Notes under the pieces: model-generated
The model's input: only the letters and a program-made list of their open reading frames with translations
The model's database searches: none
What the model was told of the DNA's origin: nothing
Program-made: the position numbers and the translations under genes
In this document: positions 1,482-14,400 of the stretch, in pieces
Layout: every line of letters begins with the position of its first letter
Position numbering within the stretch: the stretch's first letter is position 1
Assembly: GCF_013378445.1 (NCBI RefSeq)
Contig: NZ_JABXYK010000009.1
Location: forward strand, 62,001-126,000
Length of the DNA: 64,000 nucleotides
Reading direction: 5' to 3'
From: Mycoplana rhizolycopersici
GTDB lineage: Bacteria; Pseudomonadota; Alphaproteobacteria; Rhizobiales; Rhizobiaceae

Positions 1482-4130
1482 TTACAGCGTGCGCGTAACG
1501 TGCTCCACGCGGAAGCACTCGATCGTGTCGCCGGCGCGGATGTCCTCGTAGTTCTCGAAGGCCATGCCGCATTCCTGGCCGGACTGCACTTCGGAGACTT
1601 CGTCCTTGAAGCGCTTGAGCGTCTTGAGCTTGCCTTCGTGGATGACGACGTTGTCGCGAACGAGGCGTACACCCGATCCACGCTCGACCTTGCCTTCCGT
1701 GACGCGGCAACCCGCGACCTTGCCGACCTTGGTGATGTTGAACACCTCCAGGATCTCGGCATTGCCGAGGAAGGTCTCGCGCCGTTCGGGCGACAGCAGG
1801 CCCGACATCGCCGCCTTCACGTCATCCACCAGATCGTAGATGATGTTGTAGTAGCGAATCTCGATGCCCTGGCGCTCGGCGAGGCTGCGGGCCTGCGAAT
1901 TGGCGCGAACATTGAAGCCGATGATCGCCGCATTCGAGGCTTCCGCCAGCGAAATGTCGGACTCGGTGATGCCGCCAGCGCCCGAATGGACGATGCGGGC
2001 ACGGACTTCGTCCGTTCCGAGCTTCTCGAGCGCACCGGCGATCGCTTCGATCGAACCCTGCACGTCGCCCTTGATGACCAGCGGGAACTCCTTCATGCCG
2101 GAGGTCTGCAACTGGGTCATCATCTGCTCGAGCGAGCCGCGCGAGCCGGACTGGCGGGCAACCTGCTTCTCGCGGGCGAGACGCTGGCGGTACTCCGAGA
2201 TTTCGCGGGCGCGGCTCTCGTTCTCGACAACGGCGAACTTGTCGCCTGCCGCCGGCGTGCCGGAAAGGCCGAGGACTTCGACCGGCAGCGACGGACCCGC
2301 AGCCTTCACATGTTCGCCCTTGTCGGTGACGAGCGCGCGCACGCGGCCCCACTGGTCGCCGGCGACGATGATCTGGCCGGGCGTCAGCGTGCCCTTCTGG
2401 ACCAGCACGGTCGCAACCGCACCGCGACCGCGGTCGAGTTCGGCTTCGACGACGACGCCTTCGGCCGTGCGGTTCGGATTGGCCTTGAGATCAAGGATTT
2501 CCGACTGCAGCAGGATCGCCTCGAGCAGTTTGTCAAGGTTGGTGCCGTTCTTGGCCGATACTTCGACGTCGAGCACTTCACCACCCATGGATTCGACAAA
2601 CACCTCGTGCTGGAGGAGCTGCGTGCGAACGCGCTGGGCGTCTGCCGTCGGCTTGTCGATCTTGTTGATAGCCACGATGATCGGAACACCTGCCGCCTTG
2701 GCATGGTTGATGGACTCGATCGTCTGCGGCATCACGCTGTCGTCGGCCGCGACCACAAGGATCGCGATGTCGGTCGCCTGCGCGCCGCGGGCACGCATCG
2801 CCGTAAACGCGGCGTGACCGGGCGTGTCGATGAAGGTGATCTTGTTGCCGTCGTGTTCGACCTGGTAGGCGCCGATGTGCTGGGTGATGCCACCGGCTTC
2901 GCCGGCAACCACGTTAGCATGGCGGATCGCGTCGAGCAGCGAGGTCTTGCCGTGGTCGACGTGGCCCATGATCGTGACGATCGGCGGACGCGACTGCAGT
3001 TCGGCCTCATCGTCGGCAACGTTGAAGATGCCTTCCTCGACGTCGGATTCCGACACGCGCTTGACGGTGTGGCCGAATTCGCCGGCGATGAGTTCAGCCA
3101 GATCGGCGTCGATCAGATCGCCCGGCTTCATCATCTGGCCTTCCTTCATCAGGAATTTTATGACGTCCACGGCGCGTTCGGACATGCGCTGCGACAGTTC
3201 CTGAATGGTGATGGTCTCGGGCAGCACGACTTCGCGCGAAATCTTCTCGCGCGTTTCCTGCATCATGGAGCGCTTGAACTTTTCCTGACGGCGGCGGATC
3301 GCAGCCATCGAGCGACCGCGCGTTGAGCCGTCTTCGTCGGACGAAGCAGTCGTCAGCGTCAGCTTGCCCTGGCGGCGGCCTTCGTCGCCCTTCGGACGAG
3401 CCGGAACCTTTGCCGGTTCGGGACGCGTGACCTTGCCGCGCACCGGCGCGCCGGCACCGCGGGGGCCGCGACTGTCATCCTGCTCCGTCTCGCGGCGTCC
3501 GCGGACTGCCCCTGCCGGTGCGGGAGCCGACGGTGCGGCGGGCCGGGCAACGGCCGGACGGGGTGCTGCAGCGGGCGCTGCTTCCTGCGGTGCGACCGCA
3601 GCAGCCACAGGCTCGGCCTCGGTTTCGCCGCGTGCTTCGGCCTCGGCCTTGCGCTCGGCTTCTTCCTTCTCGCGCTGAATGCGGGCTTCTTCCTCGGCCT
3701 TGCGGCGGGCTTCTTCCTCGACCTTGCGGCGCGCTTCTTCCTCGGCGCGGCGACGGGCGTCCTCGGCCTCGCGCACCTGCGCATCGGCGAGCGCCCTGCG
3801 GCGAGCCTCGATCTCATCCGGAGAAAGCTGGTTCAGCACGACGCCGACACGTGGCCGCTGCGGCTCCTGGCGCGGCGGGGGCGGTGAAACCGGCTGCTGG
3901 CGCACGGGTGCCTGCTCGGCTACGCGAGGCGCAGGCGTCACCGGTTGGATCGGCGGACGTTCGTCCTCCGGGCGCGACGGACGGCGCTTGCGGGTCTCGA
4001 CCACGACCGCCTTCGTGCGGCCACGGCCCATGTCCTGACGCACCGTACCCTGCTGAACCCCCGAGGGTTTCAGGGTCAGCGTCTTCTTGCCCGCTACGCT
4101 GATCGTCTTGTCGTCTTTGTTGTCGGTCAT
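1482..4130 (-). CDS. infB: Translation initiation factor IF-2
   Basis: GTPase that positions initiator fMet-tRNA on the 30S subunit and promotes subunit joining. The 882-residue protein has a long, low-complexity N-terminal region (about 1-260) with Pro/Ala stretches and a charged helical repeat of the type [14 protein letters not shown] near 120-170. An IF2_N segment follows, then the G domain with GHVDHGKT (about 388-395), DTPGH (about 435) and NKID (about 488), and then domains II-IV. The N-terminal extension is usual for rhizobial IF-2. It is downstream of the YlxR/L7Ae gene and upstream of rbfA on the same strand. Confidence 0.98.
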
Positions 4131-4236: not shown

Positions 4237-4977
4237 TCATCGCTGTGGCTGGCGAGCGTCGCCCTGCGCCCGACCCGAGCCATCGCCACGGTACATTTCG
4301 AGCATGATTGCGCGCTTCACTACACCCTCACCCGCCTGCCCTGCAAGCGCGCAAGCATGGATAAAAGCATTCTGGCCCAAAAGCCCCTCCATTTCGGCCT
4401 GCGAAAGCAGGCGGTAGGAAGCAATTTCGCTTTCTTCGTCCGCAGCAAACATATAGGCCCGCCGCGCCTGATCTATCTTCCTGACACCGTCGGCCGCGGC
4501 ATCAGTGGCATGGAACACCGCCAGCGCCGCACCGCTGCGCACAGCCTTGTCGACATTGGCGCCGCCGGTGACGAACTGGCCGGCCTTGCGGGCAAGGTTC
4601 ATCATCCCCGCAAGCTGCCCCATCAAAAGCCGGTCGACCTCGGCGCCGAGGTCCGGCGAAGCCTTCACCTCGGCCTTCAGCGCGCGTGCGAACAGCTTCT
4701 TCGCCACCGCCTTCTCGATCAGCGCACGCTCGGCCTTGACCCAGCATCCGCGTCCCGGCAACTGCCGCTTCAGATCGGCGACGACACTGCCGTCAGGCCC
4801 GGCGACGAACCGGATAAGTGCATCGGGATCGCCGCTCTCGCGGGTCACGATGCACATGCGGCCGTTCTCGCCGTCGTCGTTCTTTCTGCTCTCGGGCAAC
4901 GGCTTCTCCGGCTGCTGCGTTTCAGTCGCATTTCCGCCTCTCGCAGAGCTGCGGAAATGCTCAATCGTTTTCGTCAC
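4237..4977 (-). CDS. RNA-binding protein, YlxR (DUF448) domain fused to an L7Ae-like domain
   Basis: A 246-residue protein with two RNA-binding modules. Residues about 37-110 match the YlxR/DUF448 fold (RMCIVTRESGDPDALIRFV, then LPGRGCWVKAERALIEKAV). Residues about 115-210 resemble the L7Ae/L30e/YlxQ fold (LMGQLAGMMNLARKAGQFVTGG, then AALAVFHATDAAADGVRKI). In Firmicutes these are two adjacent genes (ylxR, ylxQ) between nusA and infB; here they are one reading frame in the same place, which is common in alphaproteobacteria. The role is inferred as RNA or ribosome-assembly binding; no catalytic residues are seen. The tail after residue 210 is unassigned. Confidence 0.92.
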   Translation of the reverse strand: MTKTIEHFRSSARGGNATETQQPEKPLPESRKNDDGENGRMCIVTRESGDPDALIRFVAGPDGSVVADLKRQLPGRGCWVKAERALIEKAVAKKLFARALKAEVKASPDLGAEVDRLLMGQLAGMMNLARKAGQFVTGGANVDKAVRSGAALAVFHATDAAADGVRKIDQARRAYMFAADEESEIASYRLLSQAEMEGLLGQNAFIHACALAGQAGEGVVKRAIMLEMYRGDGSGRAQGDARQPQR

Positions 4978-5039: not shown

Positions 5040-6647
5040 TCAGGCGTCCTGCTCCGCGCCCTCGACAACTTCGACCGGGGCGTCCTCGGTGGCGAGATCG
5101 GCCTCGGTGATCCAGCCTGCTGCCAGACGCGCCTGGACGATCATGGCCTCGGCTTCGGTGCGCGAAACGTCAAACTTCGAGAACAGCCCCTCGAACTTCT
5201 TCGTCTCGCCGTCCTTGCGCTCCGACCAGCCGACCAGATCGTCCGCGGCGCAGCCGGCGAAGTCCTCGACCGTCTTGATCCCGTCCTCGCCGAGCGCAAC
5301 CAGCATCTGCGAGGTCAGGCCGTCGATCTGGCGCAGTTCGTCGGCAACGCCGAGTTCCTTGCGCTTGGCATCCAGTTCCGCCTCGAGGCGGTCGAGATAT
5401 TCGCGGGCGCGGGTCTGGATCTCGGTCGCCGTGTCCTCGTCGAAGCCGTCGATCGAAGCGATCTCGTCGAGATCCACATAGGCGAGTTCCTCGACGGCGG
5501 CGAAGCCTTCGGAGGCGAGCACCTGGCCGACCATTTCGTCGACATCGAGGGCATCCATGAAGAGGTTGGTGCGCTCGTTGAATTCCTTCTGGCGACGCTC
5601 GCTCTCTTCCTGCTCGGTGAGAATGTCGATGTCCCAGCCGGTCAGCTGCGAGGCGAGACGCACGTTCTGGCCGCGGCGGCCGATCGCAAGCGACAGCTGC
5701 TCGTCCGGAACGACCACTTCGATGCGCTCGGCATCCTCGTCGAGAACGACCTTGGCGACTTCCGCCGGCTGAAGGGCGTTGACGATGAAGGAAGCGGGGT
5801 CCTGCGACCACGGAATGATGTCGATCTTCTCGCCCTGCAGCTCGCCGACGACGGCCTGGACGCGCGATCCGCGCATACCGACGCAGGCGCCGACCGGATC
5901 GATCGAGCTGTCGTTGGAGATGACGGCGATCTTGGCGCGCGAACCCGGGTCACGCGCAACCGACTTGATCTGGATGATGCCGTCGTAGATTTCCGGAACT
6001 TCCATGGTGAACAGCTTCACCATGAACTGCGGATGGGTGCGCGACAGGAAAATCTGCGGGCCGCGCTGCTCGCGGCGGACGTCGTAGACGAAGGCTCGGA
6101 CGCGATCGCCGTAGCGCATGTTCTCGCGCGGGATCATCTCGTCGCGGCGGATGATGCCTTCGCCACGGCCGAGATCGACGATGACGTTGCCATATTCGAC
6201 GCGCTTGACCGTGCCGTTGACGATCTCGCCGACACGATCCTTGTATTCGTCGAACTGGCGGTCACGCTCGGCCTCGCGCACCTTCTGCACGATCACCTGC
6301 TTGGCGGACTGGGCGGCGATACGGCCGAAATCCATCGGCGGCAGCGGGTCGGCGATGAAGTCGCCGAGCTTGGCGTCCGGGTTGCGGTCGCGCGCCAGTT
6401 CCAGCGGAATCTGGGTCGAGTAGTCATCGGCGTGCTCGACGACCTCCAGCAGGCGCTGCAGGCGGATCTCGCCGGTCTTGGAGTTGATGTCGGCGCGGAT
6501 GTTCGATTCCGAGCCATACCGCGAACGGGCGGCCTTCTGGATGGCATCGGCCATCGCAGCCAGAACGATTTCGCGATCGATGACCTTTTCGCGGGCCACG
6601 GCATCCGCGATCTGCAGAAGTTCGAGCCGGTTAGCACTGACTGCCAT
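5040..6647 (-). CDS. nusA: Transcription termination/antitermination factor NusA
   Basis: RNA polymerase-associated factor that modulates pausing, intrinsic termination and antitermination. The 535-residue protein shows the NusA N-terminal domain ([20 protein letters not shown]), an S1 domain (around 130-200, [22 protein letters not shown]), KH domains ([47 protein letters not shown]) and C-terminal helix-hairpin-helix-like acidic repeats, ending in an acidic tail ([10 protein letters not shown]). It lies 126 bp after rimP and 62 bp before the ylxR fusion. The leader of this operon contains an intrinsic terminator, so NusA could act on its own transcript (inference). Confidence 0.98.
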
Positions 6648-6773: not shown

Positions 6774-7361
6774 TCACTCTTCGTCTTCGCCGTTCTGGTT
6801 CGCCGCTTCCGCCTTTGCGGCCTTGTCGGCGCGCAGCGCGTCACGGATCAGATCGTCGGTCAGGATCAGCTTCGCCTCGGCCAGCGCCGAGAACGGGATC
6901 ACCACGGTCGGTTCCTCGCCGTAGGCGGGCTGATCGCGTTCGACCGTGAAACCGTCCTCATCGCTGGAAACGATCTTTCCGCGAAAGCGCTTGCGGCCAT
7001 CGACGAGGATCGAGGTCTCGCACTTGACGAGATGACCCTGCCAGCGCGCAAAATCCGACTTGCGGACCATCGGACGATCGATGCCCGGCGACGAAACCTC
7101 GAGATGATACGCCTTGTCGACCGGATCCTCAACGTCGAGGACCGGCGAGACGGCCATCGAGACGGCCTCGCAGTCCTCGACGGTCATGGTGCCGTCGTTG
7201 CGCTCGCACATGATCTGCATCGTCAGGCCGTTCTGCGCCGACATACGCACGCGCACCAGGCGATAGCCCAACTGCTCGAGCGTCGGCTCGATAATATCGG
7301 CAACGCGCCGGTCGAGACCCGTCTCAACGATCAGCCGCGGTTCGTTCTGAATTTCCGTCAT
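6774..7361 (-). CDS. rimP: Ribosome maturation factor RimP
   Basis: Factor needed for 30S subunit maturation, binding the pre-30S particle near ribosomal protein S12. The 195-residue form starting [15 protein letters not shown] matches family length. The frame stays open upstream to 7568, but that extension would run through the putative promoter and leader hairpin, so the ATG at 7361 is chosen. Recognisable blocks are [19 protein letters not shown] and [21 protein letters not shown]. The C-terminus is acidic with Ala-rich helices ([21 protein letters not shown]). It is the first gene of the rimP-nusA-infB-rbfA-truB operon. Confidence 0.96.
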
Positions 7362-7454
7362 GGTCGCTTTCTCCACCCGGGCATGGCGCCGGCCGCAATC
7401 GAAGGCTTGGCGGCACGACGGGGCGTCTTCCAGTGTGCGCCTGACCGGGCCAAT

Positions 7455-7486
7455 AAAAAAGAGCGGGTCCTCGCGGGCCCACTCTT
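7455..7486 (-). terminator. Intrinsic terminator/attenuator in the rimP operon leader
   Basis: On the minus strand a hairpin forms from two 12-base arms (7475-7486 and 7459-7470) around a 4-base loop (7471-7474). It has 11 pairs including one G-T wobble, with a single internal mismatch, and is followed by six T residues (7460 to 7455). The nearest upstream promoter-like sequence is at 7514-7542, and rimP starts 94 bases downstream, so the hairpin stands inside the leader of the rimP-nusA-infB operon. Confidence 0.8.
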
Positions 7487-7513
7487 CATCAAACCGATCA
7501 AGAATTTGAGCCT

Positions 7514-7542
7514 GATATATACGCGATCGGCCCGGATTGCAA
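7514..7542 (-). promoter_or_regulatory. Candidate housekeeping promoter for the rimP-nusA-infB operon
   Basis: On the minus strand TTGCAA (7542-7537) is separated by 17 bases from TATATC (7519-7514), close to the rhizobial RpoD pattern of a TTGA-type -35 and TATAT-type -10. A start about 7 bases downstream, near 7507, would place the terminator hairpin 20-50 bases into the transcript. Assigned by motif only. Confidence 0.55.
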
Positions 7543-7666: not shown

Positions 7667-9298
7667 GTGCCCGACCGCAAATCCCCGCTTGCGCCCTTCA
7701 GGCACAAAACCTTCCGGCTCATCTGGGCGGCGAGCCTGGTCTCCAACTTCGGCGGCCTGGTGCAGTCGGTCGGCGCTGCGTGGATGATGGCGTCGATTTC
7801 CAGCTCGGCCAACATGGTGGCGCTGGTACAGGCCTCGACCTCGCTGCCGATCATGCTGTTTTCGCTGATTTCCGGGGCTCTTGCCGACAGTTTCGACCGC
7901 CGCCGCATCATGCTGACGGCGCAGTTCTTCATGCTTGCCGTGTCGCTGACGCTGACGCTCTTTGCCTGGTGGGGGCTGATCACCCCGTGGCTTTTGTTGT
8001 TCTTCACCTTCCTGATCGGCTGCGGGACCGCCCTCAACAACCCGGCATGGCAGGCCTCCGTCGGCGACATGGTGCCCCGCGAGGACCTTCCGGCGGCCGT
8101 GGCGCTGAATTCGATGGGTTTCAACATTACCCGAAGCGTCGGCCCCGCCGTGGGCGGCGCGATCGTGGCGGCAGCCGGCGCGGCAGCGGCCTTCGCCGCC
8201 AATGCCTGCAGCTATTTCGCCCTCATCTTCGCGCTCCTGCGCTGGAAGCCCGCCGTGCCGGAAAACCCGCTTCCGCGCGAGACGTTCGGGCGGGCAATCT
8301 CCGCCGGACTGCGCTACGTGTCCATGTCGCCCAATATCGGCAAGGTGCTTTTGCGCGGCTTCGCCTTTGGTCTTTCGAGCAGCGCCATTCTGGCGCTTCT
8401 GCCGCTGGTCGCACGCGATCTGGTCGCCGGCGGACCGCTGACATACGGTATCCTGCTCGGCTGTTTCGGCGTCGGCGCGATCGGCGGGGCGCTGACCAGC
8501 GCCTGGGCGCGCGAGCGCTTTACCAGCGAAGCGATCGTGCGCTTTGCCTTCGCCGGTTTTGCGGCAAGCGCGACGATCACGGCAACCAGCAGCTACGCCG
8601 TCATCACCGGCCCCGCACTGTTTATCGCAGGCTCTTGCTGGGTGCTGGCGCTGTCGCTCTTCAACACCACCGTGCAGCTGTCGACGCCGCGCTGGGTCGT
8701 TGCCCGGGCGCTGTCGCTTTACCAGACCACCACCTTCGGCGGCATTGCCGGCGGCAGCTGGCTCTGGGGCGTCGTCGCAGACGGACACGGCGCCGCCAAT
8801 GCACTCCTCTGGGCGGCAGCCGCCATGCTCGTCGGCGGCGCGCTCGGGCTGCGTTACGGCCTGCCGCAGTTCGAATCGCTCAACCTCGATCCGCTCAACC
8901 GCTTCAGCGAGCCGCATCTGCCGCTCGACCTGAAGCCCCGCAGCGGACCCATCGTCATCCTGATCGACTACGAGATCGCCGAAGAAGACATCCCGGCCTT
9001 CCTGACGGCGATGACGGAACGGCGGCGCATCCGCATCCGTGACGGCGCGGGCCAATGGACCCTGATGCGCGACCTTGAAAATCCAACCGTCTGGACCGAG
9101 ACCTACCATGTGCCGACATGGATCGAATATGTCCGCCACAACCAGCGGCGCACGCAGGCCGATGCCGAGAACGGCGATATTCTTCGCGCGCTGCATCGCG
9201 GCGCGGAGCCGCTTCGGGTCCACCGGATGATCGAACGGCAGACGATCCTGCCGAACGAATACGAGCGCTACAAGCAGCACGTGGACATGCACCACTGA
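7667..9298 (+). CDS. MFS transporter of the MFS_3 / EntS-like family
   Basis: Inner-membrane major facilitator of 543 residues. The first ~410 residues carry about 12 hydrophobic segments with MFS loop motifs (GALADSFDRRRIM after TM2; a repeat near IGGALTSAWARERF). The last ~120 residues are soluble and hydrophilic, beginning around PQFESLNLDPLNRF, with a two-strand dimer-type fold likely (GPIVILIDYEI). This architecture matches the transmembrane secretion effector group related to the enterobactin exporter EntS. The substrate cannot be read from sequence. The start is a GTG at 7667 with a poor ribosome-binding site, so the exact start is uncertain. It is divergent from rimP and convergent with the lytic transglycosylase gene. 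Confidence 0.87.
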   Translation: MPDRKSPLAPFRHKTFRLIWAASLVSNFGGLVQSVGAAWMMASISSSANMVALVQASTSLPIMLFSLISGALADSFDRRRIMLTAQFFMLAVSLTLTLFAWWGLITPWLLLFFTFLIGCGTALNNPAWQASVGDMVPREDLPAAVALNSMGFNITRSVGPAVGGAIVAAAGAAAAFAANACSYFALIFALLRWKPAVPENPLPRETFGRAISAGLRYVSMSPNIGKVLLRGFAFGLSSSAILALLPLVARDLVAGGPLTYGILLGCFGVGAIGGALTSAWARERFTSEAIVRFAFAGFAASATITATSSYAVITGPALFIAGSCWVLALSLFNTTVQLSTPRWVVARALSLYQTTTFGGIAGGSWLWGVVADGHGAANALLWAAAAMLVGGALGLRYGLPQFESLNLDPLNRFSEPHLPLDLKPRSGPIVILIDYEIAEEDIPAFLTAMTERRRIRIRDGAGQWTLMRDLENPTVWTETYHVPTWIEYVRHNQRRTQADAENGDILRALHRGAEPLRVHRMIERQTILPNEYERYKQHVDMHH

Positions 9299-14297: not shown

Positions 14298-14400
14298 GTG
14301 GGAGGCTGGCACGATGACCCGTGCCGGGGCTCGTTAGGGCTGCTTCCTTCCGGACCTGACCCGGTTGGCGAGTGGCTCGTCCACCACCAACCTCCCGACC
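14298..14400 (-). ncRNA. ffs: Signal recognition particle RNA (4.5S, small bacterial type)
   Basis: The minus strand carries the near-invariant SRP core GTCAGGTCCGGAAGGAAGCA (14362-14343), including the GGAA tetraloop and the asymmetric loops bound by Ffh. The ends pair: GGGAGG at 14396-14391 with CCTCCC at 14305-14300, giving a hairpin of about 100 nt. It lies just upstream of dnaX, the usual rhizobial position. The exact ends are estimated from the pairing. Confidence 0.95.

Follow-up and report, generated by a model that had tools for sequence, protein, structure and literature searches.

The leader between the promoter and the first gene of the rimP-nusA-infB operon in the window (the whole stretch of 64,000 nucleotides that was analyzed) is conserved and very probably functional. 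We interpret it as a rimP-leader of a Rhizobiales type, acting as a transcription attenuator in which termination is conditional and NusA is the likely input (probability of about 0.58). The genome belongs to the Rhizobiaceae, near Mycoplana, its best named relatives being Mycoplana azooxidifex and Rhizobium sp. GN54. Pfam confirmed the operon, with the minus-strand order promoter, leader, rimP, nusA, ylxR, infB, rbfA, and truB. The genes in and around it are as follows.

6774..7361, minus strand: rimP, first gene of the operon (Pfam RimP_N and RimP C-terminal domain)
5040..6647, minus strand: nusA, candidate effector of the attenuator (Pfam NusA_N, S1, KH_5)
4237-4977, minus strand: ylxR, start uncertain (Pfam)
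1482-4130, minus strand: infB (Pfam)
3' of infB, minus strand: rbfA and truB (Pfam)
7667..9298, plus strand: divergent MFS_3 transporter gene, the upstream neighbor, outside the switch (Pfam)
14298-14395, minus strand: bacterial small SRP RNA, ca. 7 kb upstream of the leader and on the same strand

Upstream of rimP, a sigma-70-type promoter is followed by an intrinsic terminator, here called T.

7514..7542, minus strand: promoter TTGCAA-N17-TATATC (sequence; spacing identical in relatives)
7542-7537, minus strand: promoter -35 box, TTGCAA (sequence)
7519-7514, minus strand: promoter -10 box, TATATC (sequence)
7455..7487, minus strand: T (sequence, RNAfold, conservation in the family)
7487-7478 and 7467-7459, minus strand: 5' and 3' arms of T (sequence)
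7477 and 7468, minus strand: internal C7477/A7468 mismatch of T, next to the CC/GG pairs 7476-7475/7470-7469 (sequence)
7481 and 7464, minus strand: wobble pair U7481.G7464 of T, U28.G49 in alignment numbering (all parsed Rhizobiales leaders)
7460-7455, minus strand: U tract of T, six T (sequence)

On the minus strand, the stem of T reads GAAGAGUGGG-C-CC / GG-A-CCCGCUCUUU around a GCGA loop, and RNAfold gave it 12 pairs, including a closing G-U, with one C.A mismatch. The segment 7508-7455 folds at -19.8 kcal/mol (z = -2.5 against dinucleotide shuffles), the transcript is predicted to start near 7505-7508, and the ATG of rimP, at 7361, lies 94 nt past the last T of the terminator. A simple terminator scan of the sequence did not pick up T, probably due to the C.A mismatch, and a promoter scan of the sequence likewise passed over TTGCAA-N17-TATATC; since both elements had escaped the scans, the comparative data were taken as decisive. 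These place the promoter, hairpin, and U tract far beyond chance, and the elements are real. Sequence, folding, and the spacing and pairing found in relatives all agree with the positions and the distance to rimP proposed in an earlier sequence-only reading of this DNA. That reading had also considered that a main start mapped between 7455 and 7361 would speak against it, and by sequence inspection no promoter-like site is apparent in that interval.

To evaluate conservation, we collected the regions upstream of RimP homologues at 174 loci of the family (114 close and 60 more distant). The element could be parsed upstream of rimP in 172 of the 174 loci (152 distinct sequences), so that the hairpin, whose lack of conservation would have weakened the sequence-only reading, is in fact strongly conserved. 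Both exceptions come from small or reduced genomes; in one (L173), the element is altered, its stem showing a compensatory change from G-C to A-U. The other (L174) is a reduced genome whose RimP was the least similar of those in the family search; its rimP leader is devoid of the conserved 5' part, and what remains is a hairpin resembling GGGUGGGC...GCCUGCCC. The promoter pattern CTTGnn...TATnnn occurs at one spacing in 143 of the 152 distinct sequences against 2.75 expected from shuffles, several of the statistical controls in this work leaving relatedness in. The 11 pairs of T are held in 99.8% of the cells of the family alignment, and the changes within them are mostly one-sided (A-U/G-U). 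GGG/CCC is retained in 98 to 99 of 99 family sequences, as is the U run; the position after it is a C.A or U.U mismatch, followed by CC/GG. The distance from the terminator to rimP has deciles of about 40 to 84 nt in the family and is 94 nt in the window.

With a covariance model trained on the family, 99 of the 249 order genomes gave a match, in nearly every case a single one, and all the nonfamily matches for which sequence was fetched in this search (L184 to L204) are upstream of rimP. In the own genome, this site alone scores well; one of the weak extra matches (C3:426170) resembles a plain terminator with no rimP nearby and was discarded. One family genome presented a second, weak match to the model (G133:C98:9407-9481; order search, E = 0.005). 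At the class level, the family-trained model was insensitive and returned mostly ordinary terminators. A promoter, hairpin, and U tract are also found before rimP in many Rhizobiales families other than Rhizobiaceae. The U.G wobble is present in all 167 leaders parsed by script and, by eye, in the 11 unparsed ones. The rimP leaders of other alphaproteobacterial orders keep GUGGGC...GCCC-U6, many of them with a U-A pair at the wobble position.

The sequence-only reading had missed a second hairpin, P1, which competes with T from the 5' end of the leader and seems to have been undescribed before. A third helix, P3, is predicted to enclose T in the full-length leader.

7481..7505, minus strand: P1, antiterminator-like 5' hairpin (compensatory changes in family and order; swap and shuffle tests)
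7505-7496 and 7490-7481, minus strand: 5' strand (AUUCUUGAUC) and 3' strand (GAUGAAGAGU) of P1
7442..7500, minus strand: P3, long-range helix enclosing T (full-leader fold prediction; swap and shuffle test)
7500-7494 and 7448-7442, minus strand: strands of P3, UGAUCGG with CCGGUCA

P1 starts at about +1 of the predicted RNA. In the family, 24 to 29 nt separate the end of the -10 box from the terminator arm, which puts the expected 5' end of the RNA at the base of P1. Its consensus is AUUCUUGRUC paired with GAYGAAGAGU, where AAGAGU is also the lower 5' arm of T; nucleotides 7486-7481 are common to both hairpins, which makes the two folds mutually exclusive by sequence. Within the family, 87% of the P1 cells are paired, versus 35 to 62% when the strands are slid, and 44 cells show double changes (shuffles, 0 of 500). 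Pair 10-21, for example, is A-U in 47 sequences and G-C in 32. Elsewhere in the order, P1 has been re-formed with other bases, loops, and lengths on the same arm of T, as in CUCGA/UCGAG (L184), UCUUAAAC/GUUUGAGA (L190), and UCUAGAC/GUUUAGA (L200), and in L199 as CUCaUGAU/AUCAgGGG, where the terminator arm is now CUCC. The xxGAGU segment is paired as a 3' strand in 74 of 79 leaders from other families (45 expected). P1 halves pair more strongly with their own partners (-8.67) than after swapping (-6.83, standard deviation 0.14), while the same test is neutral in core Rhizobiaceae (-8.98 versus -9.03), where P1 is nearly constant. The leader combines T with an upstream helix that excludes it, each with evolutionary support, as expected of a two-state transcription attenuator.

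Some lineages have remodeled one or the other arm. In one subgroup of the family (L144, L154, L156, L158, L159, and L162), P1 is rebuilt as UCUC...GAGA in place of the usual UCUU/AAGA, with a different upper stem, and the 3' arm of T is unchanged. In Rhizobiales family f31 (L199, L201, L202, L270, L280, L313, and L318), the terminator arm is GGGG or GGAG with CUCC; the same change is seen in two leaders of another Rhizobiales family (L287 and L316). It is compensatory and kept in P1 too. Outside the order, P1 is not a general feature of alphaproteobacterial rimP leaders (18 of 29 against 14.9 expected). Four leaders from small genomes of three other alphaproteobacterial families (L208, L210, L222, and L224) carry ACATTCT(T/C), and a P1-like hairpin is possible there on the terminator arm, for instance, AUUCUUAU/AUAAGAGU in L208. 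Going by these four, P1 may be older than Rhizobiales.

Stepwise folding of the window leader gave P1 alone at 29 nt (-8.0), P1 together with upper T at 44 nt (-15.6), and full T at 53 nt (-18.8). P1 is stacked upon upper T. The P1 state, the energy of which was computed with a penalty on lower-T pairs, lies about 3 to 5 kcal/mol above the terminated fold. The gap from the fold without lower T to the best fold has medians of 4.1, 4.3, and 5.3 kcal/mol by group, roughly half of the 8.1 to 8.5 kcal/mol obtained when the upstream sequence was shuffled. The U.G wobble weakens T exactly where T must displace P1. P3 joins the 5' strand and loop of P1 to the bases just past the U tract and is clearest in core Rhizobiaceae; its own partners gave -9.8, versus -8.92 (standard deviation 0.18) for swapped and -5.18 for shuffled ones. 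As P3 includes sequence past the U tract, it would form only in read-through RNA.

This anatomy, read from sequence and predicted folds, supports an attenuator with two exclusive states. In the mechanism that we propose, the RNA would begin about 1 to 2 nt before P1, which would fold once some 27 nt had been made and sequester the AAGAGU needed for the lower stem of T. With the polymerase at the U tract, upper T (GGG/CCC plus CC/GG) would form beside P1, and the lower arm GCUCUU would then displace the P1 5' strand UUCUU by branch migration, completing T. Displacement in time would end an RNA of ca. 53 nt at T; if it came too late, the polymerase would continue into rimP-nusA-ylxR-infB. Because the P1 and T folds are close in energy, termination would be conditional. 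NusA on the elongating polymerase would lengthen the pause and help the T hairpin to close, and plentiful NusA would thus give more termination and less new NusA, i.e., autoregulation. Judging from the operon content and from other bacteria, NusA is most likely the input, although we infer the kinetics, the direction of regulation, and the effector itself. The idea of the sequence-only reading, an attenuator-like leader under NusA autoregulation, is still the best interpretation, in line with a published proposal (PMC2965389) and with the Bacillus subtilis case (Mondal 2016, cited in PMC12288461). We also put forward, as a tentative and rather doubtful extension, a minimal bistable switch acting from the first RNA nucleotide, in which P1 and T share a six-base strand, the invariant wobble sets the balance, and NusA alone decides; the P1-like hairpins of L208, L210/L222, and L224 would make it an old alphaproteobacterial control that other lineages have lost. 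For B. subtilis, NusA autoregulation is said to need no antiterminator.

The same balance of energies could be read differently, with T giving a constant read-through, P1 merely weakening it, and no signal being sensed. P1 and T are balanced in all groups, and the element, mostly short hairpins, has no ligand pocket or variable aptamer, as such a fixed ratio would allow. However, P1 has been maintained by compensatory changes across the order and the wobble is invariant, which suggests that the balance itself is under selection; moreover, one product of the operon is a termination factor for which autoregulation is known in Escherichia coli and B. subtilis. We regard a fixed ratio as unlikely. 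Still less probable is a role of the hairpins chiefly in protecting or processing the 5' end of the mRNA, with P3 closing the read-through leader and an RNase cutting near rimP. The better pairing of P3 with its own partners, the cleavage of the E. coli leader by RNase III, and a 94-nt RNA of Sinorhizobium meliloti that appears to stop just before rimP (see below) would fit, but P3 is clear in only part of the family, and the T run directly 3' of the stem, which a terminator requires, is consistently retained. Two further candidates were rejected. The 3' arm and U tract of T contain CGCUCUUU, which we take to be close to boxA and which is nearly invariant in the family, as an antitermination site for NusB-S10 might be. 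Yet the stem changes are compensatory (CUCC in L199, L280, and L313; CCCACUUUUUU in other orders) and destroy this core, whose sequence depends on pairing and follows that of the stem in relatives at the order level; we find such a site very improbable. It is hardly credible that a leader peptide, begun at the AUG within GAUGAAG (7489), couples translation to attenuation: the window has a frame of 43 codons (7361-7489, minus strand) ending in ATGA at the rimP start, but outer-family leaders have ACG in place of the AUG, indels in the loop put the frame out of register, the predicted peptides vary in length, the frame is open to rimP in just 41 of 99 sequences, and no ribosome-binding site was seen at the 5' end of the leader. 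The frame is thus not conserved among relatives.

The same leader has almost certainly been detected before, in S. meliloti. There, an RNA encoded between SMc02910 and SMc02911 was listed as the candidate sRNA sm76 (PMC2573895) and as the mRNA leader SmelC037 (PMC2873474); it was found by Northern blotting, array, and 454 sequencing, with a length of 94 nt and Northern signals of about 90 to 100 and 180 to 210 nt (PMC2573895, PMC2873474). The SRP RNA at 259927 and this leader at 267059 (SmelC035/SmelC037) share a strand and lie 7.1 kb from each other; in the window, 6.9 kb separate the SRP RNA start (14395) from the leader (near 7507). From this similar spacing and strand, sm76/SmelC037 is almost certainly the same rimP leader, by synteny in the published tables. 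Like the window, it has a divergent neighbor gene, a sigma-70 promoter, and a terminator. The published 59% overlap corresponds to about 55 of the 94 nt, which fits the 53 nt predicted from start to U tract; we infer that the RNA runs some 39 nt past the terminator and ends just before rimP. As the S. meliloti RNA is ca. 94 nt rather than ca. 53 nt long, the product ending at T may be scarce, short-lived, or below the size that the methods used could detect. This warns that terminated products may not dominate, whereas the sequence-only reading had expected most transcripts to stop there. Its detection by three methods and a 5' sequence, UCUUGAUC, nearly invariant in core Rhizobiaceae could also point to a trans-acting small RNA, whose position before rimP would be incidental or dual. 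We think this quite unlikely, since the conserved bases covary elsewhere in the order, keeping P1, the fetched copies remain upstream of rimP, and SmelC037 was classed as an mRNA leader (PMC2873474). The attenuator that we favor would instead explain a previously listed candidate sRNA as a leader, where sm76/SmelC037 had been described without a mechanism.

Among known systems, the closest is the rimP-leader, a terminator motif found before rimP-nusA-infB in the majority of species, for which NusA autoregulation was proposed (Naville and Gautheret 2010, Genome Biol 11:R97, PMC2965389) and which was described in 2010 as the attenuator found most widely in bacteria (PMC2965389). The sequence-only reading knew of no alphaproteobacterial counterpart; this motif and the RNA detected in S. 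meliloti qualify that statement, and what seems new is P1. The rimP-leader has a GGGc...gCCC stem and a U run 4 to 130 nt before rimP-nusA-infB; the window leader lies upstream of the same genes with GGGcc...ggaCCC and a U run, 94 nt from rimP. No antiterminator was found in the general form (PMC2965389), a description rather than a strict criterion, whereas in Rhizobiales P1 competes for the lower T stem; since P1 is present here and the general form has no visible antiterminator, we take the Rhizobiales leader as a variant. The fixed U.G wobble in the lower stem is another difference. The Rfam family RF01770 (rimP leader) describes the same kind of element at the same genomic place, but it did not match the window leader even at E = 10 (gathering score, 47 bits), its only matches in the own genome being elsewhere and below the cutoff. 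Weak Rfam matches to L20_leader and ar35 (E of 0.13 to 0.26) were far below the cutoff, and no family reached its gathering score. The Rhizobiales leader would supply a family missing from Rfam.

The metY-rimP-nusA-infB leader of E. coli also has terminators between promoter and rimP, and NusA represses that operon, but it contains a tRNA gene, two terminators (t1/t2), and RNase III sites, and no counterpart of P1 could be recognized by eye. The nusA (ylxS) leader of B. subtilis reportedly has no antiterminator structures, unlike the Rhizobiales leader with P1. It precedes the same operon, transcription can end prematurely at an intrinsic terminator within it, and by analogy the same effector may be proposed for both: according to PMC12288461, which cites Mondal 2016, NusA autoregulates in B. 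subtilis by stimulating leader termination. The Rhizobiales leader offers two predicted states a few defined bases apart in the tractable Sinorhizobium and Agrobacterium, where it makes NusA autoregulation directly testable.
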